From positions 1,550,001 through 1,614,000 of the forward strand of contig NZ_CP089975.1 in assembly GCF_029581575.1 (NCBI RefSeq): 64,000 bases of DNA. Direction: 5' to 3'. Made by a program: the position numbers and the translations under genes. Under the pieces are notes generated by a model, which made no database searches, was not told where the DNA came from, and was given only the letters and a program-made list of their open reading frames with translations. Source of the stretch: Moraxella nasibovis. Its GTDB lineage: Bacteria > Pseudomonadota > Gammaproteobacteria > Pseudomonadales > Moraxellaceae. How positions within the stretch are numbered: position 1 is the stretch's first letter; each line of letters starts with the position of its first letter. Of the stretch, positions 1-41,007 are shown one piece after another.

Positions 1-269
1 AGGATTTTATTATAATCTGGTGTGCCTGGGCTGATTTCTCCTGAGTTGATTTTAGCTTGGATGTCATCATTCACCATCCAATCACCCACCATCTCACCGA
101 TAACAGCACCGACTGCTCCTGCTTCACAAGATTTGTCTTTGGCTTTGGCGGATAGACAGCCTGTCAGACCTGCGGCAAGTTTGTGAGAGAGGTTGTTGAT
201 GAGCTCATTTGTGGTGGCGATATCTAGCTTTGACAAGTAGCATAGGTGGACTAAGTCCACCCTACACGA
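1..269 (-). pseudogene. CdiA/FhaB pre-toxin fragment, runs off left edge
   Basis: Reading leftwards on the minus strand, the frame opens after a stop at 270-272 and continues past the window edge. It encodes a stretch with HKLAAGLTGC, AGAVGAVIGEMVGDWM and INSGEISPGTPDYNK. This alanine/glycine-rich pattern with paired cysteines is typical of the pre-toxin (PT-VENN type) region just before the variable toxin of CdiA/FhaB proteins. There is no ATG near the 5' end of the frame, no TPS domain and no signal peptide, so I read it as a displaced C-terminal piece of an exoprotein gene rather than a functional gene. Its downstream end, which would hold another toxin, lies outside the window. Confidence 0.6.
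245..261. repeat. short perfect inverted repeat between orphan toxin pieces
   Basis: GGTGGAC-TAA-GTCCACC forms a perfect 7-bp stem with a 3-nt loop. It sits exactly at the 5' boundary of the pre-toxin fragment and just past the 3' end of the immunity-like gene at 288-788. It could be a short REP-like element marking a recombination junction, or a hairpin ending transcription of the upstream pair. No T-run follows, so a terminator role is weakly supported. Confidence 0.5.
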
Positions 270-287
270 CTACCAAAGTACCCACAA

Positions 288-788
288 TCAGTCTTGGTCG
301 GCTGATGATGTGTTCTTTTTGCTGGATTGCTGAAGTTTTGATACATCAACTGGAAACCTCGGGTTTTCCTCATCCCAAGGCACTTGATGTTCTGCAAAAA
401 TACGCTCCAAATGCTCGATAAACGGAACATTGATTTGCTCGGTATCAAAATCCTTAAAATATAACTCAATCAGCGAGCGACCTTTGGGGGTTAAGCTGGC
501 TTCAGACACATACCAAATATTATCCTCATATGGAATGGAGTTGGATAACTGCATGCAAAAATCATCAATATTTTCATAGGTTGTCTCATGACATCTGGGG
601 TCTTTTATAAGTACATCTGGATCAAAAATGATTATATCGCACATAACCAATCTATAAATTGCTTCCACGCTAAACTGCCAAGGACTAGGGTTTCCGACAG
701 TCAATAAAAATGCACAACACAACCCATCATCAATTAACACATTTAAAAACCATTGAATACGCTCAGCATTAAGAGTGCTCATTTTCAT
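288..788 (-). CDS. putative immunity protein of an orphan CdiA-CT module
   Basis: The gene encodes 166 aa that I do not recognise as a named family. It is acidic, soluble-looking, and lacks a signal peptide or membrane segments. The start at 788 is supported by AAGGA seven bases upstream; this motif lies at the very end of the preceding truncated toxin gene (stop at 792), so the two are translated as a pair. The toxin-tail then immunity arrangement, inside a row of CdiA C-terminal pieces, argues for an immunity (CdiI-like) role. The function is inferred from context only. A second in-frame ATG two codons in (782) is an alternative start. Confidence 0.6.
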   Translation of the reverse strand: MKMSTLNAERIQWFLNVLIDDGLCCAFLLTVGNPSPWQFSVEAIYRLVMCDIIIFDPDVLIKDPRCHETTYENIDDFCMQLSNSIPYEDNIWYVSEASLTPKGRSLIELYFKDFDTEQINVPFIEHLERIFAEHQVPWDEENPRFPVDVSKLQQSSKKNTSSADQD

Positions 789-791
789 AAA

Positions 792-983
792 TTATTCCTT
801 GGGGAATTTGAGTTTTAAGTTTGTTTTACTGTTATGAGATTTATTTTTTGGCAAATTATGGATTTCTACCGTTGCCGTAGTTGGTAAAGTGTCTCTGCTT
901 GCTTTGCCAGCAGGTCTATATACCACCCAGGCACCATCGGGAGTTTGCGCCCTCCAACACCCTTGGCAATTATTATTCATCAT
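792..983 (-). pseudogene. truncated C-terminal toxin tail (orphan CdiA-CT remnant)
   Basis: The 63-residue frame contains WVVYRPAGKAS, TTATVEI and ends LKLKFPKE. This looks like the last part of a polymorphic toxin: a strand-rich, lysine-ending domain. It has no N-terminal translocation domain; its 5' end abuts the dispersed repeat at 993-1092, and the ATG at 983 is immediately downstream of that repeat. I infer that repeat insertion or recombination removed the upstream part. It is four bases from the immunity-like gene at 288-788. Whether a 63-aa product is made, or toxic, cannot be judged from the sequence. Confidence 0.5.
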
Positions 984-992
984 CGTAGCTCG

Positions 993-1092
993 GTAGGTTG
1001 GGTTGAGGTACGAAACCCAACAAAATCAAGGAGTTATATCATAATGCTAAGTTACACTATCGCTGGTTGTCTTATGAGCTATAATTAGCCTG
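993..1092. repeat. dispersed ~100-bp repeat, copy A
   Basis: It begins GTAGGTTGGGTT, contains GAAACCCAACAAAATCAA and GAGTTATATCATAATGCT, and ends ATTAGCCTG. It lines up over its whole length with copy B at 41068-41155 (GTAGGTTGG, AAACCCAACAAATTCAATG, GAGTTACGCCATAAATGCT, AAATTAGCCTACC). Related copies lie at 10742-10807, 41772-41860 and 56177-56219. It separates the barstar gene from the truncated toxin tail. Confidence 0.75.
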
Positions 1093-1096
1093 AAGT

Positions 1097-1390
1097 CTAT
1101 TTTATTATATAATCAAAACGATCTGCCCAGCCAAAACTCTCATCTTGCTCCTTAACTCTTTGTAAGACATTAATGATTTGGTAGAATACTGACGCGCCCA
1201 TGAATTTTTTTGAATTTTCAGAATTATTCCAAATAATACAAACCGGTCTTTCCACCCCCCAGGAAAGCAAATCCCAAAGAGCATTAAGATTATACCCATA
1301 AAACTCTGTTACATCACACTGAATTGCCAAGGTTCTATGAAAATCTTTTTCAGTTTTAACAATATTACCATCAATCATAATTTGATTCAT
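1097..1390 (-). CDS. barstar-family immunity protein
   Basis: The 97-aa protein matches the barstar fold signature: the inhibitory helix reads EFYGYNLNALWDLLSW, followed by the strand VCIIW. Barstar binds the active site of barnase-type RNases with an acidic helix. The Asp matching barstar Asp39 is present (residue 40 here), but the position of barstar Asp35 is Asn (residue 36) and Tyr29 is Phe. The start at 1390 gives an ATGA overlap with the stop of the barnase-like gene (1387-1389), which couples the two; an ATG at 1396 is an alternative. The partner is clearly the RNase domain encoded immediately upstream. Confidence 0.88.
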   Translation of the reverse strand: MNQIMIDGNIVKTEKDFHRTLAIQCDVTEFYGYNLNALWDLLSWGVERPVCIIWNNSENSKKFMGASVFYQIINVLQRVKEQDESFGWADRFDYIIK

Positions 1391-2328
1391 TTCCATCTAC
1401 CTATAAAAGTTACAGATTGATAATGGTTTGTTGTAATATATAACAAACCATCGTTTGAATACAAGAGTCTTGTACCTAGTTGTTTTGATCTGGATATGGT
1501 ATTTGTAAGACCAACATCCGCCTCATACCAGATTCTCCTAGGTGCATTAGGTACAACACTGGGAGTATTCCAAAAAATATCTCCTCCAATTTGCTTACCT
1601 GGGTTTGTGCTATTTAAAGCCTTTCCTGTTTGCCATCCATTTTTCCCCGCCTCAATTTTTGTAATGTAATGACTAGGCAACCTTCCATTTGAACGCAAGC
1701 TCTCAATAAGAGAGTTTGCTGCTTCAGTAGTTCTAAGATCCAAATTTAGCCTCATGCCACTATAAGAGCTGGTAGCATACCCATTTACATGGCTAATAGT
1801 GCCAGATAAACTTAGTTGATTGGTTGAGACTGCTTTCTTACCAATCGGCACAAACATTAAAGTTCCAGCCACAACCTGAAAAGAGCCTTGTCCTGTTTTT
1901 CCTTGTTTAACACTCTGAATGCCGCTTGCTATCATAGTGCTACCTGTGGCAATGCGAACAACATTCATTACCTTTCCAGGAGCTGCAAATACAGCATCGC
2001 CACCCAAAGATGCAACATCACTAACCTGCTTGTTTATATTGCGTTGTGTTGCAGCATTCCAAAAAATTTTCTCATATTCGCCGCCTGTACCCTTATTAAA
2101 CAAATAATCATTTGGTTTGAGAGTTGCCCCAGGATAATTTGTTAGCATGGACTGCATATATGATAAGCTGTTACCACTCGCATAATAATAGTTTAGTATA
2201 TCGCCTAAAGCTGTTAGTTCACTATGATTGAGTGATGATGGATTGTGGCTATATTTATCTATTAACCAATTTCCAACTTGGTCTAAAATAACTAGATTGG
2301 TTAATTCTTCAGCCTCAACCAAAGTCAT
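1387..2328 (-). CDS. orphan CdiA-CT with barnase-type RNase domain
   Basis: The 313-aa protein ends in a barnase/RNase N1 domain (about residues 217-313): LPSHYITK, PGKQIGGDIF, WYEADV, LLYSNDGLLYITTNHYQ. Residues equivalent to the barnase catalytic set are visible: Lys236, Glu269, Arg280/Arg287 and His302. Residues about 100-165 form a hydrophobic helical stretch (VFAAPGKVMNVV, STMIASGIQS) resembling the entry domain of CdiA C-termini. There is no signal peptide, ESPR or TPS domain, so the protein cannot be exported on its own by the nearby TpsB. The leader is very AT-rich with no clear ribosome binding site. It is best read as a displaced toxin module, expressed together with its barstar or silent, and usable by recombination with a full exoprotein gene. 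Confidence 0.85.
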   Translation of the reverse strand: MTLVEAEELTNLVILDQVGNWLIDKYSHNPSSLNHSELTALGDILNYYYASGNSLSYMQSMLTNYPGATLKPNDYLFNKGTGGEYEKIFWNAATQRNINKQVSDVASLGGDAVFAAPGKVMNVVRIATGSTMIASGIQSVKQGKTGQGSFQVVAGTLMFVPIGKKAVSTNQLSLSGTISHVNGYATSSYSGMRLNLDLRTTEAANSLIESLRSNGRLPSHYITKIEAGKNGWQTGKALNSTNPGKQIGGDIFWNTPSVVPNAPRRIWYEADVGLTNTISRSKQLGTRLLYSNDGLLYITTNHYQSVTFIGRWK

Positions 2329-2499
2329 TTTATATCGAAAAATAAAAATTAAATTCTTAAATAGATAAGACTTTATTTTTAAGAATATCTGTGCTAATAT
2401 TCACAAAATATTACTGCTTTGTTGCTAATAATTGGCAAATTGGCAAGTATTTTGGTACATTAAGATTAGAATTTGGTAGTGTAAGATAGGTGTGCAATC

Positions 2500-5400
2500 A
2501 TGAACCGTTTTTGTTATCGTGTGATTTTTAGCAAAAGCCTAGGCAGACTTGTGGTGGTTTCTGAAAAGACAAGATCGCAAGGCAAATCCGATAACTCAAG
2601 CATGGCCGGTAGTATGCCGGCTGCGTCATCACCTGTTGGTTTTGGTTTAAAGACTCTTACACTATCACTTCTGCTTGGGCTAGGCATGACCGCCCACGCC
2701 ACCACCGTCATCGCTGATCCATCTGCCGATAAATCACTACAACCCATTGTTCTGCCTACCGCCAGTGGTGTTGTCTCTGTTAATATTGCTACCCCTAATG
2801 ACAAGGGTCTGTCTAACAACCATTACAGCCAGTTTGATGTCGGCAGCACAGGCTTGGTTTTAAATAACAACCGTAAAGCGACAAATACCCAAATTGCAGG
2901 CTTTGTGGCAGCCAACCCTTTTATGGCTCGTGGCGAAGCTTCTACCATCTTAAACCAAGTCAATTCAAACCATCCAAGCCACTTGGGTGGTTTTATTGAA
3001 ATTGCAGGACAAAAAGCCGATGTCATCATTGCCAACCCGTCAGGGCTTGTGGTGAATGGTGCTGGCTTTATCAATGCAGGTAATGTCCATCTGGCAGCGG
3101 CAAACAGTCAGGTTCATCAAGGGCAGTTGACAGGTTATGAAGTTGGTGTAGGTAATATTGCTGTTAATGGCAAATTAAACCTACAAAACACCGATTATGC
3201 CGCTTTAATTACCAAAACTGCCCAAATCAATGATGAGATTTATGCAGGTAATGTATTAGATGTTATTCTAGGTGAAAACCAAGTCAGTCTTCAAAATGGT
3301 GATTTTACCAAGCTTAATGCCACTAATAAACAAACCAGTGTATCATCCGCCAGTCAAACCACCAATAAAGAACAGAGGGGCGTTGCCCTAGACATCTCAT
3401 CTTTGGGCGGTATGTATGCTGGTAAAATCCATCTGATTGGTACAGATAAAGGCTTTGGGGTCAATAACCAAGGGGGCATCACAGCAAATGGCAAAGGCGT
3501 ACAGGTAGGCACTGGCACACTGACCCTAGATGCTCAAGGCAATCTTATTAATACTGGCATACTGTCTGCCAAAGACAAACTTGCCGTTAGCACCCATAAT
3601 CATTCTGTCCAAAACGATGGCACGCTACTGAGTGAACAAGCTGACATCACCATCAATACAAAAGACCTTGAGAGCGCAGGCACCATCCACAGCACTCAGA
3701 CCACCGCTATTGATGCTGCCGATACTTTAAACAATCAAGGCAGCATTTATGGTGGTGTTTTACAAATCACCACTGGTAAGCTTGATAACACAGGCAAACT
3801 TATTCAAACAGGCACAGGCAGCCTTCACATCAGCACAGACACCCTAACCAACAGCAATAAAGCCGTCATCGGTCAAAGTCTGTATGAGCAAACCACCCTT
3901 GATGCACCAAGCACGCCCAGCAGCGATCAAAGTGCTGGTACTATTGGTAGTGATTCTAAAGACAATACAACAGCCAACACTGCCAACTCATCAAACACTG
4001 TCACACCTGCAACCACAGACACAGCTCAGTCCATCCCAGTACCAAGTGCTGATGGTTTTATCACAGCCAAATCTTTGACCAATACAAACGATGAAGCACT
4101 CATCACAGCCACAGGCGACATTAGTATCACCGCCAATCAGACAAAGAACACCCATCAAGCATCCATTGATGCACAAACCTTAAACACCAAGACTCTTGCC
4201 AACACCGACAGTAAAATCGCTTTAGGTGACATTAACTGGCAATTAACCAGCTTTGACAACAGCAAAGGCGATATTAGTGCCAAAGATGGTATGGTGATTG
4301 ACAGTGAATCTACCATCATTAACGCAGAGGGTAGTTTGACAAGCGGCGGTGATATGACACTTATCGCCAAAGACAACATCATCAATCAAGGTGGTAGTAT
4401 CACTGCAAGAGAGCAAGCAGACATTGCTGCCAAAGAATTACAAAACGGCGGCAGCATCACGGCTGACACGCTGACCATCACCCAAGAAGTGGGCTACACT
4501 CATACGGATGATGACAAGCTCATTGCAAACAATCTTACGCTAACCACCGCTGGCAAGCTGGTAAACCAAAGCCAACTGACTGCCAATCAAGATTTGACAC
4601 TGAATGCCAGTCACATTGACAATGCCCAAACAGGCAGTATGACAAGCGGTCATCTTGCACAGATAACCAGTCAAACTAACATCACAAACCAAGGCTTGAT
4701 CAACAGTGAAAACACACGCATCAAAGCCAAAAACACCATCGATAACTTGGCTGGTGGCCGTATCTATGGCACACACCTTGCCATTACTGCCGACACCCTA
4801 AACAACACCCCAGCCAAAGCCAGTGATACCGACAGCCATCACACCGCCCCTGTGATTGCAGCCAGAGAGCGTCTGGATATTGGTGTTAACACATTAAACA
4901 ACAACCCCAACCCTGACAGAGCGGGCAAATTTAACGAAAACTTCGACAGTCAAGCCTTAATCACAAGCCTAGGCAGCCTGCACATCGGCGGCAGTCTTGA
5001 TGACAAGCATCAAGCTGCAGGCAAAGCACAGACGGTTGTTAACAAAGGAGCGACCATCGAATCTGGTGGGGAGATGGTGGTTAATACCAAAACCTTATTA
5101 AACACCAATGCTGACTTTAAAAAGCATAAGGTTGAAGTGGTAGAAGAATCCGTTCGTGGGCAAACGCTGTACCGCAACCGTGAGCAATCAGGGGCAGCTC
5201 CTGTCATTCAAAAAAGCACCAATACTGATGATTTGGGCAATAAACCCATGGCAGGATTGTTTGACTGCCCAGAGGGTAGCGACTGCATCATCAACTACGG
5301 CAATGATTCTGCCATCTGGTCGTACTTTAAAATTGAGCCACCCAAAGAGTCTATCCCAAGCATTAAAGCTCAAGATCTGTTAGATGAGCCTGATCTGCCA

Positions 5401-8400
5401 GAAAATGAAACCGCCGAAAGTTGTGCGCTGGCAGAAGCAAGCAACCAAGCTTGCACACAGTATAATGAAGCATTGGTCAATTATACCAAGGTCATGGGTC
5501 CTTTATTAAAATGGGAAGAGGATAATGCTGCATCCATCGAAGCGCTAAATTCAGCGATTCGAGAGTATAACCGTCAGTTCGTCAAAGACAAAAGCGATGT
5601 GGATTTGGCATTAAACATCTACACCACCGATGAAGCGTATTTGGGTCCAACCAGTAAAAAAGGTGCACCGACTGGTGCTTTATATGTCAAACAAGCAAAC
5701 GGAAGCGACCAACGCGTTGGTGAAGAGATTGATGAGATCACTGTTGACTTTGTGGTCTATGAGGATAAAACCCTCACCTCTGACCCTGCTCGTATGGTGG
5801 CAGGTAATGATCTTATCATTCATGGCGATACCTTAATTAATGATAAAAGCCAGATAACTGCAGGTCATGGCTTTGCTGTCATTGGCGATACTGTCATGCA
5901 AACACCTGACAATGGCCTGTATGGTGAAAAAACCAAAGTCACGGAAAATGGTCGATATGTCAGCCGCACGGTTGAGTCATCTGCTGCAGGTCGCAGACAT
6001 AAGCGTGTGGATATCGGCAGCGGCAGCTTTGTACAATCCTTTGCACCACTAGCAACTTACGAGCTCCCCATCCTAAATGCCACCATCAATACCACGCCAA
6101 GCAGCACAGGTATTGATAAACCAGCCACAGGCAATGATGCCTCTACCATCATCAAGGATGTGGGTGATGACACCATCACCTTACCAACTTCAGCCCTATA
6201 CATCATCAACGCTGACGACCCAAATCAACCACTGGTTCAAACCGATGCCGCCTTCACCGATTACAAACAGTGGCTTGGTTCTGATTATATGCTAAAAGCA
6301 CTACAATCAGACCCAAACCATATCCACAAACGCCTCTCTGATGGCTATGGCGAGCAACAGCGCATCAAAGATCAGTATTATCTACTGACAGGCAGACACA
6401 TCAACACCGATTACCGCAGTAACGAAGAAGCCTTTAAACAGTTGATGGATAATGGCATCACTCATGCCAAACAGTTCGGCTACACACTTGGCACGGCACT
6501 CACGCCCGAGCAGATGGCAAATCTTACCACAGACATCGTCTGGTTGGTCAAACAGTCCATTACCTACACCATCAAAGACAAAGATGGCAATACCATCACC
6601 AAAACAGAAGAAGTGTTGGTGCCTAAGCTGTATCTGCGTTCTGCCAACATCGCCACAGGTGCGCTTACCCCTGATGGTAGATACAGTGCTGTCTCTGCCA
6701 GAAGCGTCAACATGCAGCTGACTGGCAACTTGGATAACAATGGTAATGTCATTGCCAAAGACACCATGAGCATCAAAGCAAATAATGTCAATAATACAGG
6801 CACCATTTATGGTAACTTTGTCGCTGTCACAGCAGATAACACCATTGCCAATCATGGCACCATGTATGCAAACAGTGCCATGAGTCTAGATGCAGGCAAC
6901 CAAATCATCAACCAAAGTCTAACCACCACCCAAACAAACACACAAGGACAAAGTCACTCATCCAACACCGCCACCACACGCATCGCCACCATCAGTGTTG
7001 GTGAGGGCTTAAAAGACAAAACTGATGAAAACGGCGAACCATTAACCACCCTAAGTCTGCGTGGCAATCAGATCATCTATCAAGGTGCCACATCAGACAA
7101 CGCAGGCGGCAATACCCAAATGACCGCCAAAAACGGCATTGACATCGGCACTGTTACCGTAAGCAATCACATCAGTGCGGTGGCAGATGACAATAATTAC
7201 TTTAAGTACAGTCAAACTACCGATGTGGGTTCAAATATCACAAGTGCTGGTAACACCATCATCAGAACCACAGGTGAGTATGCAGACATTAACATCCAAG
7301 GCTCAAGCGTACAGTCGGAAGGTGTGACTGCTGTTAAGGCGACCGGTGATGTACGCATGGGTGAAGGTCGGCAAACACAGAGTGTAGAGAGTGAAAGTTT
7401 ACACACCAATCGCCGCTTAACGGGCAGTAAAACCGAGCGGTCTAGCTTTGAGCAGCACAGCAGCACCAGCATAAAAAATCAGGTGGGCGGCAATCAAGTA
7501 GTCATCAGCGGTGTCAATACTACTTTGATGGCAACTGAAGTATTAGCGGATGGCGATATTCTTGTTAAAGCCGACAAACAGCTTAGCATTGGCTCTACCG
7601 CAGACAGTCTAAGTAGCCACAGTAGCGAGCAAACCACCAAAAAAGGCATATTTACCACCGCACCCGCCTCAGTGACCCTAGGCAAACAGCACACTCGTCA
7701 AGAAAACAGCCATGAGCAAGTCACCTACACAGGCTCATTGGTGGGTACAACAGGGGGTAACATCCGCCTTGAAGCAGGTGACGGGGTGGATGTCATTAAC
7801 AGCGACATCATCGCTCAAAAAGATGAGACAGATGCCAATACAGGCAATATCTTATTTAAAGCACAAGCTGTCAATATCACAAGCCAAAACATCCAATCCA
7901 GCAATGAATCACACTTCTTACAAAAAACCACAGGGGTGACTGCCGGTGTTTCAAGCAGTGTTGTGAGTGATGTACAAAGCATTGAAAGCTTAAAAGACGC
8001 TGCCCAAGACACCGACTCTCGCCGTGCTAAGCTCATGGGGACTTTAGCAGCTGCATCTAAAATACGCACCCTTAATCAAAACTTGCAAGACGGCAAACTA
8101 GGCTCTGTCAGAGCCCAAGCTACCATCGGCAGTCAAAGCACCAAAAGCGACAGCCACAGCCATCAAGAGACCAATGACGCTGCCAACATTCATGCAGATG
8201 GCAATCTCATCTTTGATGTGTCAGGCAAAGGCGCTGACAGCACACTCACCATCACAGGTTCAAACATCACAGCTCAAGAAAACCTATACAACCGTGTTGA
8301 GGGCGATGTCATCTATCAAGCCTCAACCCAGACCAGCACCCAAGACAGCCAAAACAGCAGTAAAGGATGGGGAGCAGGTGTCTATGCCTCTGCCAATCTT

Positions 8401-10467
8401 GGCACCGATGGACTAAGCTCAAACTCCGCTGGCTTTACCGCTAATGCCAATAGAGCAAAAGGCAGTAGCCAAGAGATTGCCACAACCCACACCAATACCC
8501 AAGTCACTGTTGGCGGTACAACCGTCAATGACATTGGTGGCAGTCTTATCCTAGATGGTGCCAATCTTGATACCACATATCTAACAGGCACAGTAGGCGG
8601 TGATCTGATCGTCAAAAGCCGTCAAGACAGCTACCAATACACCCATGACCAAAAACAAATGGGCGGCAGTCTTGATGTCAGCTTCCAAGGCGTACCACAA
8701 TCTGCCAGTATCAATGGCGGTAAAACAGACATAGACGCAAGCTATAAACAAGTCACCCACCAATCAGGCATCAAAACCAAAGAGTCCACCCTGTCTGTAC
8801 AAGGGATGGGTAAATTCACAGGCGGCTATCTCATCACCGATGCAGGTAAAAACCAAACCCAGTTTGCCCAAGGTATCCAAACCCAAGACATTGAAAATCA
8901 CCTAAGCTATGAAGGTGATGCCATCAGTGTCGGCATTGGTATCGGTGCAGACACCAGCAGTCCAGATGGCAAAGCAAAACCTGCCCTACAAGGCTTAGGC
9001 TATGGTACAATAGACCCAGTTAATAAAACTAGCACCACCCACTCTGCCATCACAGATCAGGCAGGGCTCTCCCACATCAACACGGAGAACTTCAACCGAC
9101 AAGAAGTGCAAGATGAGCTAAATCAAATCATTACCAATGACTTTGATAAGGAGCAGGCGGCCAAAGAGTTAAATGCTCAGACAGTCATTACCACAGAGTT
9201 TGGGAGGGAAATACCTAAACAAATCGGCGATTATGCCCAAGACAAAGAGCTTGAACTACTGGCACAAGGCAATATTGAAGAAGCCAAAAAATGGGCAGAG
9301 GGTGGGATTTACCGTGTGGCATTGCATACTGCTGCAGGGCTGCTGGCAACTGGGACGATAGAGGGTACGCTTAGCACAGGAGCAGTAGCAAGTATTGCCC
9401 CCACATTTAACAAGCTACAAGCCAAACTGACAGAAAAACTCACTGAACAAGGTTTGGATGAAGACACTGCTAAAAATATCAGCAACTCTGCACTAACCCT
9501 TCTCATCATGGGAGTGGGTGCAAGCACAGGGCTTGATACCAGTAGCACAGCTTATGCGGTGAATACGGATGTGAATAATAGGCAGTTGCATCCAACTGAA
9601 AAGGAGTTGGCAAAATCTCTCTTTGAAAAAGCCAAACGAGAAGGATTAAAAACCGCTGATGGTGAGGAATATACATTGGAGCAATTTGAAGATGCTTTAA
9701 GGTTGGCAAATCATAGGGGTTATGGTGAAACTTATATGAGCAATATTCATGAAAGTTATTTTCAGTCTGGCAGGGGGGCAGCAAAGGTTATAATTTCTGC
9801 TGACAATGAAGATTTATTGGAAGATTTTGATTTGAAGAATCCTTATCGCAAATGGAGCCTGTTAAACCAATCCACCAAAGATGGTGTTACCACTTTTAAT
9901 CTTATACAAAATTTGGGTAGTCTACACAAACCTGATGAAAATTTAATACGCTTTATCAAAGTCAATGATATACAAAATGATTATAGCTGGACAGATGGCT
10001 GGGTTCAGCCTTATAGACCAACGGTAGTCAATACATATGTCCCAAATAAAATACAAGCACCAATTTATCCAGAATATGCTAAAGATGCAAATAATGCAAT
10101 GGTGATGAATCCTGATAATCCTATGATAGTTTCCTGCGCCATTCATAATACTAGGTATTGCAGAGAGATGAATCAAAAAGGAATGGAAGGTCTATCAAAC
10201 ACTTCTCATTTTATGCCTGGTATCATGAGCATCCCATTAAGAATAGTGACGGAGCCATTGGCTATCGCAACGAAAATAGAAAACGAAGGTTTTGGTAAAA
10301 CTGTGGTTGGTCTCGGTGTGTCTGCAGCAACCGAAAGAGTGGTAAGAACTCCACAAACTTCAGCCATTGTTGATCAGATTGGTACGAATGATGCGATTAC
10401 TAATGCGATATATGATAGCTGTATATCTCAAAATGTTAGAGGGGAACAGAAACATGAGTGTAAATAA
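2500..10467 (+). CDS. CdiA/FhaB-like two-partner-secretion exoprotein (contact toxin)
   Basis: The 2655-aa protein starts with an extended signal peptide (ESPR, NRFCYRVIFSKSLGRLVVVSE) and a hydrophobic core ending AHA at residue 67. The TPS haemagglutination domain follows, with NHYSQFDV (107-114) and NPSGL (179-183). The middle is a long filamentous region rich in N/G/T/S repeats of the FHA type, interrupted at about residues 900-1330 by a Cys-containing non-repeat segment (CPEGSDC, CALAEASNQAC) that may bind a receptor. A pre-toxin region ends at VNNRQLH (2358-2364), a junction motif used by Moraxellaceae-type exoproteins in place of VENN. The last ~290 residues are a variable toxin I do not recognise. 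No frameshift is seen. Its stop overlaps the small membrane gene at 10454, and the TpsB transporter follows, so the order is A-I-B as in Burkholderia bcp and Moraxella mha/mch loci. Confidence 0.92.
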   Translation: MNRFCYRVIFSKSLGRLVVVSEKTRSQGKSDNSSMAGSMPAASSPVGFGLKTLTLSLLLGLGMTAHATTVIADPSADKSLQPIVLPTASGVVSVNIATPNDKGLSNNHYSQFDVGSTGLVLNNNRKATNTQIAGFVAANPFMARGEASTILNQVNSNHPSHLGGFIEIAGQKADVIIANPSGLVVNGAGFINAGNVHLAAANSQVHQGQLTGYEVGVGNIAVNGKLNLQNTDYAALITKTAQINDEIYAGNVLDVILGENQVSLQNGDFTKLNATNKQTSVSSASQTTNKEQRGVALDISSLGGMYAGKIHLIGTDKGFGVNNQGGITANGKGVQVGTGTLTLDAQGNLINTGILSAKDKLAVSTHNHSVQNDGTLLSEQADITINTKDLESAGTIHSTQTTAIDAADTLNNQGSIYGGVLQITTGKLDNTGKLIQTGTGSLHISTDTLTNSNKAVIGQSLYEQTTLDAPSTPSSDQSAGTIGSDSKDNTTANTANSSNTVTPATTDTAQSIPVPSADGFITAKSLTNTNDEALITATGDISITANQTKNTHQASIDAQTLNTKTLANTDSKIALGDINWQLTSFDNSKGDISAKDGMVIDSESTIINAEGSLTSGGDMTLIAKDNIINQGGSITAREQADIAAKELQNGGSITADTLTITQEVGYTHTDDDKLIANNLTLTTAGKLVNQSQLTANQDLTLNASHIDNAQTGSMTSGHLAQITSQTNITNQGLINSENTRIKAKNTIDNLAGGRIYGTHLAITADTLNNTPAKASDTDSHHTAPVIAARERLDIGVNTLNNNPNPDRAGKFNENFDSQALITSLGSLHIGGSLDDKHQAAGKAQTVVNKGATIESGGEMVVNTKTLLNTNADFKKHKVEVVEESVRGQTLYRNREQSGAAPVIQKSTNTDDLGNKPMAGLFDCPEGSDCIINYGNDSAIWSYFKIEPPKESIPSIKAQDLLDEPDLPENETAESCALAEASNQACTQYNEALVNYTKVMGPLLKWEEDNAASIEALNSAIREYNRQFVKDKSDVDLALNIYTTDEAYLGPTSKKGAPTGALYVKQANGSDQRVGEEIDEITVDFVVYEDKTLTSDPARMVAGNDLIIHGDTLINDKSQITAGHGFAVIGDTVMQTPDNGLYGEKTKVTENGRYVSRTVESSAAGRRHKRVDIGSGSFVQSFAPLATYELPILNATINTTPSSTGIDKPATGNDASTIIKDVGDDTITLPTSALYIINADDPNQPLVQTDAAFTDYKQWLGSDYMLKALQSDPNHIHKRLSDGYGEQQRIKDQYYLLTGRHINTDYRSNEEAFKQLMDNGITHAKQFGYTLGTALTPEQMANLTTDIVWLVKQSITYTIKDKDGNTITKTEEVLVPKLYLRSANIATGALTPDGRYSAVSARSVNMQLTGNLDNNGNVIAKDTMSIKANNVNNTGTIYGNFVAVTADNTIANHGTMYANSAMSLDAGNQIINQSLTTTQTNTQGQSHSSNTATTRIATISVGEGLKDKTDENGEPLTTLSLRGNQIIYQGATSDNAGGNTQMTAKNGIDIGTVTVSNHISAVADDNNYFKYSQTTDVGSNITSAGNTIIRTTGEYADINIQGSSVQSEGVTAVKATGDVRMGEGRQTQSVESESLHTNRRLTGSKTERSSFEQHSSTSIKNQVGGNQVVISGVNTTLMATEVLADGDILVKADKQLSIGSTADSLSSHSSEQTTKKGIFTTAPASVTLGKQHTRQENSHEQVTYTGSLVGTTGGNIRLEAGDGVDVINSDIIAQKDETDANTGNILFKAQAVNITSQNIQSSNESHFLQKTTGVTAGVSSSVVSDVQSIESLKDAAQDTDSRRAKLMGTLAAASKIRTLNQNLQDGKLGSVRAQATIGSQSTKSDSHSHQETNDAANIHADGNLIFDVSGKGADSTLTITGSNITAQENLYNRVEGDVIYQASTQTSTQDSQNSSKGWGAGVYASANLGTDGLSSNSAGFTANANRAKGSSQEIATTHTNTQVTVGGTTVNDIGGSLILDGANLDTTYLTGTVGGDLIVKSRQDSYQYTHDQKQMGGSLDVSFQGVPQSASINGGKTDIDASYKQVTHQSGIKTKESTLSVQGMGKFTGGYLITDAGKNQTQFAQGIQTQDIENHLSYEGDAISVGIGIGADTSSPDGKAKPALQGLGYGTIDPVNKTSTTHSAITDQAGLSHINTENFNRQEVQDELNQIITNDFDKEQAAKELNAQTVITTEFGREIPKQIGDYAQDKELELLAQGNIEEAKKWAEGGIYRVALHTAAGLLATGTIEGTLSTGAVASIAPTFNKLQAKLTEKLTEQGLDEDTAKNISNSALTLLIMGVGASTGLDTSSTAYAVNTDVNNRQLHPTEKELAKSLFEKAKREGLKTADGEEYTLEQFEDALRLANHRGYGETYMSNIHESYFQSGRGAAKVIISADNEDLLEDFDLKNPYRKWSLLNQSTKDGVTTFNLIQNLGSLHKPDENLIRFIKVNDIQNDYSWTDGWVQPYRPTVVNTYVPNKIQAPIYPEYAKDANNAMVMNPDNPMIVSCAIHNTRYCREMNQKGMEGLSNTSHFMPGIMSIPLRIVTEPLAIATKIENEGFGKTVVGLGVSAATERVVRTPQTSAIVDQIGTNDAITNAIYDSCISQNVRGEQKHECK

Positions 10468-10738
10468 AATCCTTATTGCTGCTCCTTTTGCTATAAGCAT
10501 CATTGTATCAATTGAGTTAGATAAGAAATACTATTTTGATTTTTATGAATTTTTTATATTTTTATTTGTTTCATTGATGGTTTTTGTGAATATTTATGAC
10601 TATGTTAATGGCAGGGATTTTTGGTCATTTGGAAATAAGCTAAAATCAAATGATAGCAAGCTATCAAGATTTTATTGGTTTTCTTTGATAATTATAGTTT
10701 ATGCATTGGGTGTTTTTTATTTTTTATTTGAGGTTTAG
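10454..10738 (+). CDS. small integral membrane protein, probable immunity protein
   Basis: The 94-aa product has three hydrophobic segments (about residues 5-20, 30-48 and 74-92) with a short charged loop between the last two. The start at 10454 is chosen because GAGGGGAACAG lies just upstream and the ATG overlaps the last codons of the exoprotein gene. The longer in-frame reading from 10367 would lie mostly inside that gene. Its position directly after the variable toxin end is where CdiI immunity genes sit. Membrane-embedded CdiI proteins protect against CdiA toxins that act at the inner membrane, so I infer a membrane-active toxin. AT-rich codon use differs from the exoprotein body and fits exchange as a CT/I cassette. 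Confidence 0.72.
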   Translation: MSVNKILIAAPFAISIIVSIELDKKYYFDFYEFFIFLFVSLMVFVNIYDYVNGRDFWSFGNKLKSNDSKLSRFYWFSLIIIVYALGVFYFLFEV

Positions 10739-10741
10739 CCC

Positions 10742-10807
10742 GTAGGCTTAGGTTAGCGACAGCGTAACCCAGCTCGTAGGTTGGGTTGAACGAATGTGAA
10801 ACCCAAC
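10742..10807. repeat. dispersed repeat, copy D (two half-modules)
   Basis: The first half GTAGGCTTAGG-TTAGCGACAGCGTAACCCAGC is nearly the reverse complement of the 3' half of copy B (41125-41155). The second half GTAGGTTGGGTTGAACGAA-TGTGAAACCCAAC is nearly the reverse complement of the end of copy C (41828-41860). It lies between the immunity gene and the transporter gene, and an open frame starting inside it extends the transporter gene upstream, so it may affect translation or transcription of tpsB. Confidence 0.75.
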
Positions 10808-10902
10808 ATTTTCAGATGCAACCCATTGAATTGTTTGATTTTGATTTGCTAAACCTCCAAATCCCAAAATCCATTAACCACAACCCCAAAAGACCCAAAC
10901 CC

Positions 10903-12768
10903 ATGACCCATACCACCTACCCATCTTACCGTATACCAGCCCTGCCAACACGACCGGCATTGGCTGTCTCTTTGACTTTGTGCTGTTCAGCTTATGCCAA
11001 TACTTCTGCTGAACAGATTACCCATCAACAAATCTTGCTTAATGAACAAAGACAGGCGGTGCTTAATCAATCATTGATAACTAGCCCTAGCGTACAAGTT
11101 GATGTGCCTGCCTTTGACCCTGTTGCCAAGATGGACTCTGTTCACACTGACAATCAAGACAGACACAATGATTTGCCTTGCTTTGTTATCAATCAAATCG
11201 CTTATGCACCGCTTGATACTGCTGCTACTGGTGGCGTGGATTTGAATCAATTCGCCTTTGCTCTTACGCCCTTAACCCATGGCAAGCGTAGTGTACTGGG
11301 TCAATGCCTAAATATCAATGACATTCATCGCATAACTCGTGATGTACAAAACCGCTTGATTGAGCGTGGCTTTGCCACCACCAGAGTCTTTATCGGTGAT
11401 CAAAACTTATCTGACGGTCAGCTTGTCTTGACTGTCGTGCCAGGTGTTATTGGACAGATTAAGGCAGATACTCTAAATAGTCCCAAACCTATTTATACAG
11501 TTTATACAAACCCCACAGGACTGCCTGCCAATTTTAAGACTGCTTTGCCTTTTAAAGCTTACGATGTACTAAACATCAGACAGCTTGAAACCGCCCTTGA
11601 AAACCTCAAACGAGTGCCAAGCTCTGATGCTGATTTTGCCATCATGCCAAGTGAGACTGGTAAGGTGGGAGCAAGTGATGTACTCATCAAATACGCTGCA
11701 TCCAGAAAAGTGCGAGGCAGTCTTAGCCTTGATGATTCAGGGTCAAAAACCACAGGCAAATATCAAGGCAGTGCTACCCTAAGCTTTGATAATCCCACTT
11801 GGCATAATGACTTACTCTACTTAACCTACAGCCGTGATTTGGGCAATCGCATCAATAAAGACGAATATACCAATAAGACTGATAAAGGCGGCAGTAAAAA
11901 CTATGGACTAGGCTATGTCCTACCCATTAAAAACACCGTCTTTAATGCCAATGCAAGTCATTACACCTATCATCAAACCGTGGCAGGGGTGAATCAAGAT
12001 TATATATACAGCGGTGATTCTGATAACATCAGTCTAAATGCCAGTCACTTGGTACATCGAGATGCCAAGAGCAAAACATGGCTCAATGCAGGTGGTTTCA
12101 CCAAATCACAAAAAAGCTATATTGACGACACCCAAATCGATGTACAGCGTCGCAAAATCTCAGGCTGGACGGCAGGCATTCGCCATGAGACACGCCTAGG
12201 ACAAAGTCAGCTAAATACAGATGTCAGCATACAACGAGGTACAGGGGCATTTAATGCCTTGACACCACCTGAGAGTCTGTTTAACGAAGGCACGGCACGC
12301 ACACCGATTTATAAGCTCAATCTAAACTTTGCCACGCCCATCAAAATGGGTGATAACTACCAAGCAGGTTATCAGGCAAATCTAAAAGCCCAATACACCC
12401 AGGAAGCCTTAGTCCCCAGTGAGCGAATGAGCATTGGTGGACGATATAGCGTGCGTGGCTTTGATGGTGAGCGGACACTGTCAGGCGACATCGGAGCAAC
12501 CCTTCGCCAAGATGTCAGCTTTCCCATCAAACAATCCAATCATAGCCTATATCTGGCTCTAGATGCTGGCAGTATCGCCATGCAAAACAAAGAACAAGAC
12601 AACCTACTGCTTGGGCATACTCTGGTCGGTGGGGCAATCGGCATCAAAGGACAAATCAAGCCACTACGCCTAAACTACGACTTCTTTGCAGGACATCCTA
12701 TCAGACAGCCTAAGTATTTTGGTGATAAAGATTGGGTCAGTGGTGTAAGCTTGGGGATGAGTTTTTAA
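10903..12768 (+). CDS. TpsB/CdiB-type outer-membrane transporter (Omp85 family)
   Basis: The 621-aa protein is the outer-membrane pore that exports the exoprotein. The start at 10903 gives a proper Sec signal peptide ending AYA (residues ~1-32); earlier in-frame ATGs at 10786 and 10816 would put an acidic stretch in front, and 10786 lies in a repeat. Next come the POTRA-type periplasmic part (CLNINDIHRITRDVQNRL, GFATTRVFIG, LVLTVVPG) and the ShlB-type barrel with RGFDGERTLSGD, the conserved lid-loop motif of this family. The C-terminus ends in Phe (GVSLGMSF), as expected for recognition by the Bam machinery. The size is in the usual TpsB range. Its substrate is the gene at 2500-10467. Confidence 0.92.
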   Translation: MTHTTYPSYRIPALPTRPALAVSLTLCCSAYANTSAEQITHQQILLNEQRQAVLNQSLITSPSVQVDVPAFDPVAKMDSVHTDNQDRHNDLPCFVINQIAYAPLDTAATGGVDLNQFAFALTPLTHGKRSVLGQCLNINDIHRITRDVQNRLIERGFATTRVFIGDQNLSDGQLVLTVVPGVIGQIKADTLNSPKPIYTVYTNPTGLPANFKTALPFKAYDVLNIRQLETALENLKRVPSSDADFAIMPSETGKVGASDVLIKYAASRKVRGSLSLDDSGSKTTGKYQGSATLSFDNPTWHNDLLYLTYSRDLGNRINKDEYTNKTDKGGSKNYGLGYVLPIKNTVFNANASHYTYHQTVAGVNQDYIYSGDSDNISLNASHLVHRDAKSKTWLNAGGFTKSQKSYIDDTQIDVQRRKISGWTAGIRHETRLGQSQLNTDVSIQRGTGAFNALTPPESLFNEGTARTPIYKLNLNFATPIKMGDNYQAGYQANLKAQYTQEALVPSERMSIGGRYSVRGFDGERTLSGDIGATLRQDVSFPIKQSNHSLYLALDAGSIAMQNKEQDNLLLGHTLVGGAIGIKGQIKPLRLNYDFFAGHPIRQPKYFGDKDWVSGVSLGMSF

Positions 12769-12833
12769 ACGCAAGTTGACATCAAAACCATCAGTTAGGC
12801 AAATCAGCTTGGCTGGCAATTTTTTTTATTGGG

Positions 12834-12900
12834 TGGTCAAATGAGGGTGGAATGAGTGGTCTCGTGAAGAGTGGAACAGGTGATCATTTGGAGTGGAATG
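12834..12900. mobile_element. IS21-like terminal repeat remnant
   Basis: Three direct repeats with a period of 23-24 bp each carry TGRTC followed nine to ten bases later by TGGAA: TGGTC at 12834, 12857 and TGATC at 12881, with TGGAA at 12848, 12872 and 12894. Multiple terminal repeats of this spacing are typical of IS21-family ends. No transposase gene is present, and only 66 bp separate the end from the tpsB stop. I infer that an insertion followed by deletion joined the toxin locus to the restriction locus here, removing most of res. Confidence 0.55.
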
Positions 12901-13124
12901 TGCAATTTATCAGACAAAGAAAGCTGATTTTGTGTTTGGATATTTTTTAAATTATCAAAAATATCATCTTTGGATAATGATAATTCATTGGCAATCACAC
13001 GCATACTGTCTTTATCCGACAAGCTAAAATCATCTTGATGATGTGTGATTTCTCCTTGAAATAAATCCACGATACTATCAATCGCCTGTTTTTGATAGTC
13101 TAAATGATCATATTGAATTTGCAT
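12837..13124 (-). pseudogene. truncated type III restriction endonuclease (res), N-terminal stub
   Basis: The frame opens 19 bases after the mod stop, in the same direction, and begins MQIQYDHLDYQKQAIDSIVD, the standard N-terminus of type III Res subunits. About 75 residues on (near 12900) similarity ends and the last ~20 codons run through the IS21-like terminal repeats (LHETTHSTLI). The helicase (Walker A/B) and nuclease domains of a full Res (usually around 900 aa) are absent. The restriction activity is therefore lost at this locus and Mod is left as a solitary methyltransferase. Confidence 0.82.
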
Positions 13125-13143
13125 TACCTATTTCCCCCAATAA

Positions 13144-15044
13144 TTAAATGCTCTCAAAATTTAGTCCAGCATCTTTAAATTGTAAAATTACATTGGATTT
13201 TTCGCTGTCATTTAAAAATGCTTTGTCCAATACAACGGTTTTGGCAGGTTTTTTGGCAATAATGGCGTTAAACTCATCCTGGGATAATGAATTTAGTACA
13301 ATGGCGTACGATTTATTTTCACAAGTTAGCCAATAAACGCCATTATCAAATTTAATATCCGCCGTTAATTTTAATCCCATTTTTAATAACAGTTCATAGA
13401 TAATATCCATCTCATTGGCATTATCTTTTAAGGGGTCAATATACATTTCTAATTGCTTGGCAATATCATCATTGTCAATTTGCCACGCTTTAAAATTGCT
13501 ATCACTTAATTTAAATACCTTAAATCCTGTATCAAGAGCTTTATCAGGATTTTCGGCTTTGATTTTTACCCCTGCACGGCGAATGCGTTCTTTGGAGATA
13601 TCGCTAATGGTTTTAAATCCAGCTTTATAGGCTTCGCTTTTTTCATCGGTTAATTCTGGTAATTGCACCATTATAAACTGACGATTACCGCCATCTTCTG
13701 AGTTTAATTGCATGACAGCGTGGGCGGTGGTTGCCGAACCTGCGAAAAAGTCTAGGATAATGGAATTTTTGTTGGTTGATATTCCTAATAAATGAATAAT
13801 CAATTTTGCAGTTTTTGGAAAACTAAAATAACTAATATTATCAAATAGTTCTTTTAGTTCAATTTTTCCATTTTGAGTACGGCCAAAACGAGTATCTACT
13901 AATAAATTTCTAGGTTTCGCCCCTAATTTTTCATAACTTTTAGTATAAACATAGCCATTCTTAAATACCAATTCATTATATCTTTCTTTTACTAATTGTT
14001 CAGACCATCTCCAACGAGCAGTAGGATTATCTGGATTTGGCTGTTCAACTGTATATATTGTTCCATCAGGTGCTGTGATTGGATAGTCTAAACTTTTGAT
14101 ATACCCCAATGCTTTTTTATCTAATCTATCTAGAGCATATTTTCCAAACTCATCTTCATATTGATAGTTTGTTGCGGTTTCAGCTTTCAAATCATCAAAC
14201 AATTCAAATTGATTGGCATCTTTAGCATAAACCATTACATACTCATAATCCGATGAAAAGAATTTTGCATCATTTCCACCGCCATTTTTACTTTTCCAAA
14301 TTAAACAATCAACAAAATTCTCTCCCCCAAAAATCTCATCACACAACAACTTTAATTGAGCCTGTTCATTATCATCAATACTAATAAAAATCACGCCATC
14401 ATCAGAAAGCAAAGTATGAGCCAAATGCAAACGGGGCAACATCATATTAAGCCAATTAGAATGATAATGCCCATTGTCTTTGCTGTTCTTTTTAAAAGAT
14501 TTTAATAATTCGCCATTGATATTTCTATCGCCTGTGGCAATTTCATACTCTTTTTTGCTTTGGCTAAAATCATCGTGATAAATAAAGTCATTGCCCGTAT
14601 TATAAGGCGGGTCAATGTATATCATTTTGATTTTGCCTGCATAAGATTTTTGTAATATTTTTAGGGCTTCTAAATTATCACTTTCAATAAAAATGTTTTG
14701 TGTGGTATCAAAATCCACACTCTCGGCAGGGCAAGCAATGAGCGTGTTATTGGTAGGGGCTTGTAGGGCTTGATAAGCGGTTGATTTTCCTGCCCAATTT
14801 AAGCCATAGCGTTCGTTTTGGGCAAAATGGTCGCCCAGTAGGGTTTTGAGTTTTTCTAGATCTAGGGTATTTTCGGAAAATATTTCGGGTAAGATTTGGC
14901 GAAGTTTGGCTAATTTTTCACCAAAAAAGTCAGTATTATGGGCAGTTTTTAGGCTGTTGGTTGGTTGGTTGGTTGGTTGGTTGGTTGGTTGGTTGGTTGG
15001 TTGGTTGGTTGGTTGGTTGGTTGGTTCATTTTGCGATTTTCCAT
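13144..15044 (-). CDS. mod: phase-variable type III DNA methyltransferase Mod, OFF in this sequence
   Basis: Mod methylates adenine N6 at a sequence set by its central recognition domain. In the downstream frame the protein reads [40 protein letters not shown], then motif [13 protein letters not shown] and, near the C-terminus, motif [15 protein letters not shown]: the beta-class order. The ATGs at 15044 (MENRKM) and 15029 feed into a (CAAC)17 tract. From them the frame hits TAA at 14951-14949 immediately after the tract, whereas the methyltransferase frame has no ATG upstream. One repeat more (18) or two fewer (15) would join the two frames. An internal GTG at 14718 would lack the first ~80 residues and is unlikely to be used. 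The cognate res is truncated. This is the modM-type phasevarion switch known from Moraxella. Confidence 0.9.
14956..15026 (-). repeat. CAAC tetranucleotide tract (17 units), phase-variation switch
   Basis: A 71-bp pure tract; on the coding strand it is AAC followed by 17 CAAC units, beginning just after the mod ATG at 15029. No interruption is visible, which favours slipped-strand mispairing. Each unit shifts the frame by one base. With 17 units mod is out of frame; encoded residues in the tract are repeating Q-P-T-N. Confidence 0.97.
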
Positions 15045-15110
15045 AGCAAGTGTCAAGTAAAATTTTTTATTTTAACAAATTGTTTGATAAACATAAAGCC
15101 AGTTTTTGGC

Positions 15111-15165: not shown

Positions 15166-16542
15166 CTAGCCACGCACTGCTTTCACCGCTTCCGCTACCG
15201 CTTTTTTAAAGCGAGTGATGACCTCTTGGCACTCGTCCGTAGTAATGGTAATCGGACACAGCAAACGCACCACCGTACCGCCACGACCACCACGCTCTAA
15301 CAGCAGCTTATTATCAAAGCACGCTTTTTGAATGGCAACGGCAAGCTCCGCGTCGGCAGGGTGTGAACCGATTTGGTCTTTTGGCTGACGCTCATCGACA
15401 ATCTCGATGCCCGTCATCAGACCACGCCCACGCACATGACCGATACAGCCGAATTCTTGTGCAATTTTACGCAGCTCATCACGCAAAAACTCGCCTTGAA
15501 TGCGTGAGTTTTCGGTTAGGTTATTATTGCTGATTTCGTTCAAGACATTGTAGCCTGCCGCCATGGCAAGCTGATTGCCACGGAAAGTGCCTGTGTGTCC
15601 TGCTGGCGCCCAAGCGTCAAATTTTTTGTTAATCGCCAATACGCAAAGTGGCAAACCGCCGCCCACCGCCTTAGACATGACGACCACATCAGGGACAATC
15701 TCGGCGTGTTCAAAGGCAAACATCTTGCCAGAGCGAGCAAAGCCAGCCTGTACTTCGTCTAGGATAAGCACGATGTCATGTTTGGCGGTAACTTCACGGA
15801 TTTTTTGGAGCCATTTTTTGGGCGCAGGGACAACACCGCCTTCACCTTGAATGGCTTCTAGGATAACGGCAGCGGGTTTTACCACACCACTTTCGACATC
15901 CTCGATGAAGTTTTCAAAATAATAAGTCAAAGCGTCCACGCCCGCCTCACCGCCAAGCCCAAGTGGGCAACGGTATTCGTGCGGATATGGCATGAACTGC
16001 ACGCCCGCCATCAGGTTGCCGACCTTTTCTTTGGCGGACAAATTGCCTGTCATCGCAAGCGAACCGTGCGTCATGCCGTGATAGCCGCCAGAGAATGCGA
16101 TGACATTGTCGCGCCCTGTGTAGGTTTTGGCAAGCTTGATGGCAGCTTCTGTACCGTCCGCACCCGTTGGGCCGCAGAATTGTAGGACAAAATCTTTTGG
16201 AAAAAATGACAACAATTTTTCGGTAAATGCGTCTTTAATCGGCGTGGTAATGTCAAGGGTATGCAGTGGCAAACCGCTTTCTAGCACGTCTTTAATGGCG
16301 TTGATTGTGGCAGGGTGATTGTGTCCTAGGGCAAGTGTGCCTGCGCCAGCTAAGCAGTCAAGGTATTCATTACCCTCAACATCTGTTACCCAGCACCCTT
16401 GTGCTTTGGCGATGGCTAGTGGAAGTTTACGGGGGTAACTACGGACATTGGATTCCATCTCGTTTTGACGAGTCAGATAATATTCGTTGGTGGCGCCGTC
16501 TTTGGCGGCAACAGGGGTGTGATTTACAGAATGAACGCTCAT
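15166..16542 (-). CDS. dat: diaminobutyrate--2-oxoglutarate aminotransferase (class III)
   Basis: The 458-aa PLP enzyme has class III aminotransferase motifs: [57 protein letters not shown] and the Schiff-base lysine in [13 protein letters not shown]. The overall pattern matches the 2,4-diaminobutyrate:2-oxoglutarate 4-aminotransferase of Acinetobacter and relatives, which interconverts aspartate semialdehyde plus glutamate and diaminobutyrate plus 2-oxoglutarate on the way to 1,3-diaminopropane. The partner decarboxylase (ddc), adjacent in Acinetobacter, is not next to it here. Other class III substrates (GABA, ornithine) cannot be fully excluded. Confidence 0.82.
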
Positions 16543-40161: not shown

Positions 40162-41007
40162 ATGACTCACATCAAAACTTTGGCAGAAATCTTGGCGGAC
40201 ATGGGTGAGCCTGTGTCCGCTGATTCATCTTGGTCAAACTCACCATCAAATCAGCCAACACAAAGCCAAACCAACCAACCAAACCAAACCCAAAAAACAC
40301 CAAAAAGCCAAAAAAATCAGCAATCTGACAAAAAACACCTACCCAAAAAAGGCACCCAAACCAAGCCTAAGCCATCAAGCATTGGCACACTACTTGGAAC
40401 ATCAACGCACATTTTGGACGAGCGAACGGCTGTCGCCCTACAAAATGTCGCCATTGAACCCATTTACCAAAATGACAAAGCCATCAATTATATGCGCTGG
40501 CTGGCGTTTTATTATTTGTCCAATCGTGAATTATCACAAAAACAGCTCCGCCAAAAACTACTGGACAAAGAATGCGACCCACAGATGGTTGATGAGCTAA
40601 TCACAGAATTTGCCCAAAAAAACTACCAATCCGATGAACGCTGTGCTTTCATGCTGATTCGTGAAGGGGTGCGGCGTGGGCGTGGCAAGCACCACATCGC
40701 CCAAAGCCTAAAAACCGCCGGCATTAACCTGCCATATTCCCTAGACGAGCTGATACAGATGGCGGACATCACAAGCCTAAGTGACGGCACGATTTTGGCA
40801 GACGATGATGACAAGCCAGAACACATCAACTGGCTAAAACTTGCCGTAGAAGCTCGCTGTAAAAAATACGGCAACCATCTACCCACCGACCAAAAACAAA
40901 AGGCTCGTCAGTTGCGATTTTTGCAGTATCGGGGGTTTGAGATGAGCGTGTGCTTTGATGCGCTCAAATACACACTGGACGACATGGACGAGCTGGATTT
41001 TGTTTGA
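40162..41007 (+). CDS. recX: regulatory protein RecX with long low-complexity N-terminus
   Basis: RecX binds RecA filaments and limits recombination. The C-terminal ~165 residues carry the tandem three-helix RecX repeats (YYLSNRELSQKQLRQKLLDK; ISLxDG-type middle replaced by DITSLSDGTI; KKYGNHLPTDQKQKARQLRF; LQYRGFEMSVCFDALKY). The protein is 281 aa, well above the usual ~150-200. The extra N-terminus is rich in N, Q, P, K and S (NQPTQSQTNQPNQTQKTP) and encoded by CCAAACC/CCAACC-rich DNA. A DDDDK insertion sits in the middle. It directly follows recA and is probably co-transcribed. Confidence 0.88.
   Translation: MTHIKTLAEILADMGEPVSADSSWSNSPSNQPTQSQTNQPNQTQKTPKSQKNQQSDKKHLPKKGTQTKPKPSSIGTLLGTSTHILDERTAVALQNVAIEPIYQNDKAINYMRWLAFYYLSNRELSQKQLRQKLLDKECDPQMVDELITEFAQKNYQSDERCAFMLIREGVRRGRGKHHIAQSLKTAGINLPYSLDELIQMADITSLSDGTILADDDDKPEHINWLKLAVEARCKKYGNHLPTDQKQKARQLRFLQYRGFEMSVCFDALKYTLDDMDELDFV

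Follow-up and report, generated by a model that had tools for sequence, protein, structure and literature searches.

The window analysed here is a 64,000-nucleotide stretch of the Moraxella nasibovis genome (contig NZ_CP089975.1, positions 1,550,001 to 1,614,000 of the forward strand), and our subject is a gene on its minus strand, mod, which is predicted to encode a type III DNA methyltransferase (Mod) and whose 5' end is crossed by a tract of CAAC repeats. A first-pass annotation of this DNA had described the gene as phase-variable and OFF. The gene and its leader comprise the following features.

13144..15066, minus strand: mod, an open frame of 640 codons, predicted type III N6-adenine methyltransferase of ModM type (frames, profile and structure matches)
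14956..15023, minus strand: (CAAC)17 tract (tract scan, frame translation, repeat searches)
15042..15044, minus strand: upstream ATG, the first start of the first-pass annotation, missing in M. cuniculi
15027..15029, minus strand: ATG ahead of the tract, the likeliest start, kept in 6/6 ModM-type leaders including the window
14949..15044, minus strand: reading in the OFF state, 31 (or 26) residues, terminating at TAA 14951-14949 (frame translation)
15028..15056, minus strand: promoter-like TTGACA-17-CAAAAT, its second hexamer over ATG 15029 (pattern search, leader comparison)

A mod gene read through a CAAC tract

On the minus strand, the tract runs from 15023 to 14956 and consists of exactly 17.0 CAAC units (68 bases) without interruption. 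Three units (CAACCAACCAAC) matched the window 15 times, always within the tract, compared with 0.01 times on average over 100 shuffled sequences, and all 13 genome-wide matches to five units also fell within the mod tract; thus, chance is excluded for the tract. An imperfect, short CCAA-rich stretch is present at 40247-40290 of the window, where a pure tract of at least four units is absent.

Both ATG 15044 (31 amino acids) and ATG 15029 (26 amino acids) run into the tract and end at TAA 14951. The Mod frame, preceded by a stop TAA at 15069, is open from 15066 to TAA 13146-13144 and spans the tract. Between 15066 and GTG 14718, it contains no ATG, GTG or TTG, GTG 14718 being the first such codon, and its sole near-start 5' of the tract is ATT 15063. 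Two TTG codons were rejected as rescue starts, i.e. TTG 15056 is in the same frame as the ATGs, and TTG 15049 reaches TGA 15028 ahead of the tract. The first-pass annotation had placed both ATGs upstream of an uninterrupted (CAAC)17, had let their frame end at a TAA just past it, and had found the Mod frame to cross the tract with no ATG of its own; the exact count and TAA 14951 bear out the first two statements, and the third extends to GTG and TTG as far as GTG 14718.

A GGA lies ~10 nt upstream of ATG 15029. The six ModM-type leaders compared are those of five aligned loci, the window included, and that of M. bovoculi 237; M. cuniculi lacks ATG 15044, which makes ATG 15029 the preferable start codon, and from this comparison we regard it as the likeliest site of translation initiation.

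Three features mark the encoded protein.

14602..14613, minus strand: DPPY catalytic motif, residues 152-155 of the 640-codon frame (translation; motif name as in PMC2667262)
13795..14337, minus strand: target recognition domain, residues 244-424, with borders drawn from identity blocks (identity comparison)
13732..13746, minus strand: FAGSA, an FxGxG-like S-adenosylmethionine (AdoMet) motif, residues 441-445 (translation)

The Mod frame matched N6_N4_Mtase in Pfam (1.1e-37) and MTase_III in PADLOC (1.1e-197, residues 41-636), and had one weak match only in NCBIfam (47 bits, with a cut-off of 292). Among proteins in the PDB, the sequence matched the Mod of 6k0w (1.2e-75) and EcoP15I Mod (4zcf; 2.2e-66). 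The same two were the best PDB matches when an AlphaFold2 model of 597 residues was searched with Foldseek (4zcf_A, 3.9e-35; 6k0w_A, 6.6e-35; TM-scores 0.59-0.66 with a large root-mean-square deviation). This model, based on 19 aligned sequences (the window and 18 of the 80 loci found), was of modest quality (mean pLDDT, i.e. predicted local distance difference test, 67.9) and contributed little beyond the sequence matches. Moreover, DPPY is followed by a central recognition domain and then FxGxx, which is the type III (EcoP15I-like) layout. EcoP15I and 6k0w Mods are not known to be phase-variable, and EcoP15I has an intact Res, in contrast to the split res beside the window mod. In total, the matches in Pfam, PADLOC and the PDB, the latter by sequence as well as fold, agree with the type III Mod first proposed, and the prediction that mod encodes a type III DNA N6-adenine methyltransferase of the ModM type is well supported.

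Kinship with the ModM system

A switch of this kind is already known in the genus, i.e. in modM and modN of M. catarrhalis. ModM (modM1-6, of which ModM2 and ModM3 control phasevarions) has a 5' CAAC tract that is in frame when the number of units, n, is divisible by 3, and the window gene is alike. In ModM3, 36 units are ON and 37 are OFF by western blot (PMC6902483), and the rule therefore fits the published system. ModM is also a type III N6-adenine methyltransferase with conserved ends and a swapped recognition domain, with res and then ddc downstream, and the window locus is alike in these respects; the position of ddc downstream of res is described for the M. catarrhalis modM locus in PMC6902483. 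Other type III Mods of the genus that are phase-variable, or potentially so, are ModN and ModO of M. catarrhalis, and in ModN the CAAC repeats also lie inside the reading frame. A homologue of modM4 has been reported in M. bovoculi (PMC6241649). In a literature search, no phasevarion of a bovine Moraxella was among the matches listed, which is not proof of absence in print.

The upstream neighbour of mod is as follows.

15166..16542, minus strand: dat, diaminobutyrate--2-oxoglutarate transaminase (NCBIfam NF005386, 5.5e-258, above cut-off)

The locus order is dat, mod, the 5' piece of res, an inserted element, the 3' piece of res and a ddc-like gene, so that res and ddc lie downstream as in ModM; the ddc-like assignment rests on a 379-bit match, which is under the curated cut-off of 900. 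The same position of dat upstream of mod was seen in all 4 ModM-type relatives whose available DNA includes this side (L106-L109), whereas no dat was found next to the Mod of L112, which is more distant.

Whole tracts were available for the window and four relatives, with one genome per species, and contained 17, 46, 18, 41 and 18 units, i.e. their lengths differ between species. By frame arithmetic, the open frames obey the rule of divisibility by 3 in 5/5 of these tracts. That the number of units switches the frame and that 17 units are OFF, as originally suggested, is thus supported by the frames, the tracts of the relatives and the ModM3 rule. The draft genome of M. bovoculi 237 breaks at the mod tract, and its dat contig (L129 3393-3525) has CACACA after ATGAAC where the others have CAAC repeats; this CACACA run is probably an assembly artefact.

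The mod ends are conserved, and the recognition domain is allele-specific: the window carries the allele of M. bovoculi 237, unlike five other ModM-type relatives, with 3 changes in 181 codons. Synonymous divergence (dS) from 237 is 0.017 in the recognition domain versus 0.427, 0.205 and 0.186 for the three remaining parts of mod, and the ratio of nonsynonymous to synonymous divergence (omega) for the whole gene is 0.116. Because of the gene order and a recognition domain exchanged between conserved ends, we conclude that the window locus is a new ModM-type member. It differs from ModM of M. catarrhalis in that its host is close to M. bovoculi, its res is split by a ~17-kb element and its recognition domain is of the 237 type. 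On these comparisons, recognition domains appear to move between Moraxella species, resembling ModA, the recognition domains of which are swapped between species (PMC3311624).

The split res gene and the element inside it

Downstream of mod, res is interrupted by an insert of ~16.95 kb, which leaves 74 codons beside mod and ~93% of the gene past the element, outside the window.

12903..13124, minus strand: 74 codons of res, left from its 5' end (94.6% identity to Res of M. bovoculi 237)
1..12904, no strand: window part of the ~16.95-kb element in res, genome coordinates C1:1545953-1562904 (end sequences; similar layout at another site in the relative G009)
2500..10467, plus strand: fhaB-type secreted protein of 2655 amino acids, in the element (TPS, Fil_haemagg_2, ESPR)
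10786..12768, plus strand: fhaC-type two-partner secretion transporter, in the element (ShlB, POTRA_2, POTRA_3)
12890..12904, minus strand: element end TGCACATTCCACTCC, with 11/15 bases common to the other end
12905..12911, minus strand: GATAAAT direct repeat at the mod-side junction; the second copy, at the other junction, is outside the window

The 3' piece of res is open for 806 codons, starts with an ATG from the element end (MDFADKL..., fused in frame to Res) and carries the ResIII and RE_endonuc domains. Approximately 70 N-terminal residues are missing from it; these align with approximately residues 9-80 of EcoP15I Res. The missing part contains LDYQKQAI, which we take to be similar to the helicase Q motif. 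A deletion or exchange removing res was rejected as the 3' piece was found beyond the element. The first-pass annotation had stated that no functional Res is next door: an intact res, as expected beside mod in a functional type III restriction-modification system, is indeed absent nearby, but most of res survives ~17 kb away. The only other hit of a genome-wide search for a spare res was to a second type III locus, whose res aligned in two pieces at 44% and 34% identity. Among the other six ModM-type loci, res is frameshifted in one, that of the relative G011 (L106, 46 units), where it lies in two overlapping frames of 392 and 492 codons that meet at a T run near 7093-7121.

The element carries istA and istB (IstB_IS21, 9.7e-54; IstA with rve and Mu-transpos_C_2), which are IS21-type genes. 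Its ends share 11 of 15 bases, but chance-level matches with 3-4 mismatches occur elsewhere in the region; the flanking GATAAAT repeat is 7 bp, or up to 9 bp if the element end is placed differently. In G009 (L137 986-18537), similar ends lie between AAAAAC repeats around a similar layout at a different site, with a shortened istB. Judged by its genes and ends, the element, seen in two Moraxella species, may be a transposon with a two-partner secretion system as mobile cargo; no IS21 element with fha cargo was among the matches listed in a literature search, which does not prove absence in print.

The mod gene converges on fhaC, and a terminator-like site in 12500-13250 is present on the fhaC strand only. 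In the ON state of ModM3, the mod transcript is up 9.03-fold and the res transcript 5.49-fold (PMC6902483). Given the one-sided terminator and these increases, we speculate that mod transcription may have an antisense effect on fhaC, and that the tract may also tune the fhaB/fhaC locus by antisense read-through from mod.

The second type III locus (L114 3594-5551; C1:1830593-1832550) has its mod in two frames of 524 and 129 codons with a 1075-codon res downstream. The frame changes at a run of nine C (C1:1832130-1832138); runs of at least nine C occur at seven places in the genome, counting both strands. By its frames, this gene is a second candidate phase-variable Mod.

Phase variation and its likely consequence

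We propose the following mechanism. Translation would start upstream of the CAAC repeats, with ATG 15029 as the most likely site, and slipped-strand gain or loss of units would shift the frame, such that a number of units divisible by three would give full-length Mod and any other number a peptide of ~26-31 residues or less; the sequenced consensus of 17 units would be OFF. In the ON state, Mod would methylate adenine at a site that residues 244-424 determine, probably the same site as for the M. bovoculi 237 allele. With an IS21-type element in res, switching would most likely alter methylation, and thereby gene expression, without restriction. In total, we consider a ModM-type phase-variable mod, frame-switched by its CAAC tract and most likely acting by methylation without restriction, to be the best explanation, with a probability of roughly 0.83. 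Within this explanation, a phase-variable mod that is OFF in this consensus is well supported, and a methylation-only phasevarion is plausible.

The most likely outcome is a phasevarion that lacks restriction, which has a precedent in Haemophilus and Neisseria (PMC2667262): in the ModA systems of H. influenzae and Neisseria, a phase-variable Mod is retained despite a broken res, as in the window. ModA differs in having AGCC repeats and in that inactivating mutations or a deletion that keeps the frame, and not a large element, disrupt its res.

Several observations weigh against our explanation. TTGACA-17-CAAAAT is kept in 6/6 ModM-type leaders with four different spacers; it also precedes, with a dissimilar spacer, an unrelated restriction-modification gene; all 7 loci, the window included, retain the GTG codon at 14718; and the 3' piece of res shows no decay, with omega values of 0.158-0.190 against five intact copies, among which omega is 0.137-0.206.

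The alternative that survives best, although we regard it as rather unlikely, holds that 17 units is not the state of the culture, i.e. that the reads were mixed or the consensus is one unit off, so that describing the gene as caught OFF is an overstatement. One ModM3 population carried 34 to 37 units simultaneously (PMC6902483), and the 237 draft breaks at the tract, its dat contig ending in CACACA. By contrast, the genome studied here is a single contig, and a tract of 68 bases should be short enough for single reads to span.

If TTGACA-17-CAAAAT is a real promoter, the transcript begins past ATG 15029 and lacks this ATG. Mod might then be made at any tract length, with transcription beginning inside the tract and a shorter Mod, still holding DPPY, the recognition domain and FxGxx, starting at GTG 14718. 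In addition to the conserved hexamers, their constant spacing of 17 bases and the conserved GTG, a gene in G011 (L139 1165-5248) speaks for this: it has nearly the same leader, with the same AT-rich block, TTGACA, 17 bases (counted by eye) and CAAAATG before a CAAC tract of ~19 units, with one partial unit after the ATG. This gene encodes a type ISP restriction-modification enzyme (Pfam, PADLOC), and may be cut short as its 1311 codons end early relative to the family profiles. However, the ATG of L139 reads in frame through its tract into the 1311-codon frame, the promoter pattern in the window is no commoner than in shuffles (1 match versus a mean of 1.1), and ModM3 protein tracks tract length in M. 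catarrhalis, at the two lengths compared (PMC6902483). Moreover, purifying selection acts on the region 5' of GTG 14718 (omega of 0.107 relative to 237), in which 11 columns are invariant among the 19 aligned proteins; therefore, GTG 14718 is probably a mere conserved valine. Because of L139, we raised this alternative slightly, to improbable from more improbable, and lowered the best explanation from 0.85.

Equally improbable is that mod is a dying remnant, unselected after res was split, with 17 units simply where the tract stopped. The split itself and the frameshifted res in G011, 1 of the 6 other ModM-type loci, would fit, and the insertion may be too recent for decay to show, given that the 3' piece of res is equally undecayed; the 640 stop-free codons of mod, its uninterrupted tract, the 3 changes in 181 recognition-domain codons and the omega of 0.116 all argue for maintenance instead. 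A long-decayed system was rejected as the omega values of mod and the 3' piece of res give no sign of it.

The weakest alternative, a working phase-variable restriction-modification system in which the 806-codon 3' piece is expressed from the ATG at the element end and partners Mod, draws on the open fused frame, its ResIII and RE_endonuc domains and omega values like those among intact copies, but seems very unlikely with approximately the first 70 Res residues gone and promoter-like sites at the junction near shuffle level (4 versus 2.9, with 1/4 on the res strand). Nevertheless, the lack of decay makes loss of restriction no more than probable; as res is split rather than lost, and its 3' ~93% is open with an element-derived ATG, a methylation-only system is no more than likely.

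Two further readings are tentative and rather doubtful: the leader, in view of L139, would be a portable phase-variation cassette, and an IS21-type fhaB/fhaC transposon would have made the system methylation-only in one step. In the former, a single module that combines promoter, start codon and switch may have become joined to DNA-modifying genes unrelated to each other.

The promoter-like site that overlaps the start codon in every leader read also concerns the published ModM system. The natural split of res would provide a strain for studying the effects of methylation where restriction is probably absent. Finally, several Moraxella species beyond M. catarrhalis share a ModM-type switch at this locus, with recognition domains that are apparently mobile; thus, findings in the human pathogen can inform studies of related species.
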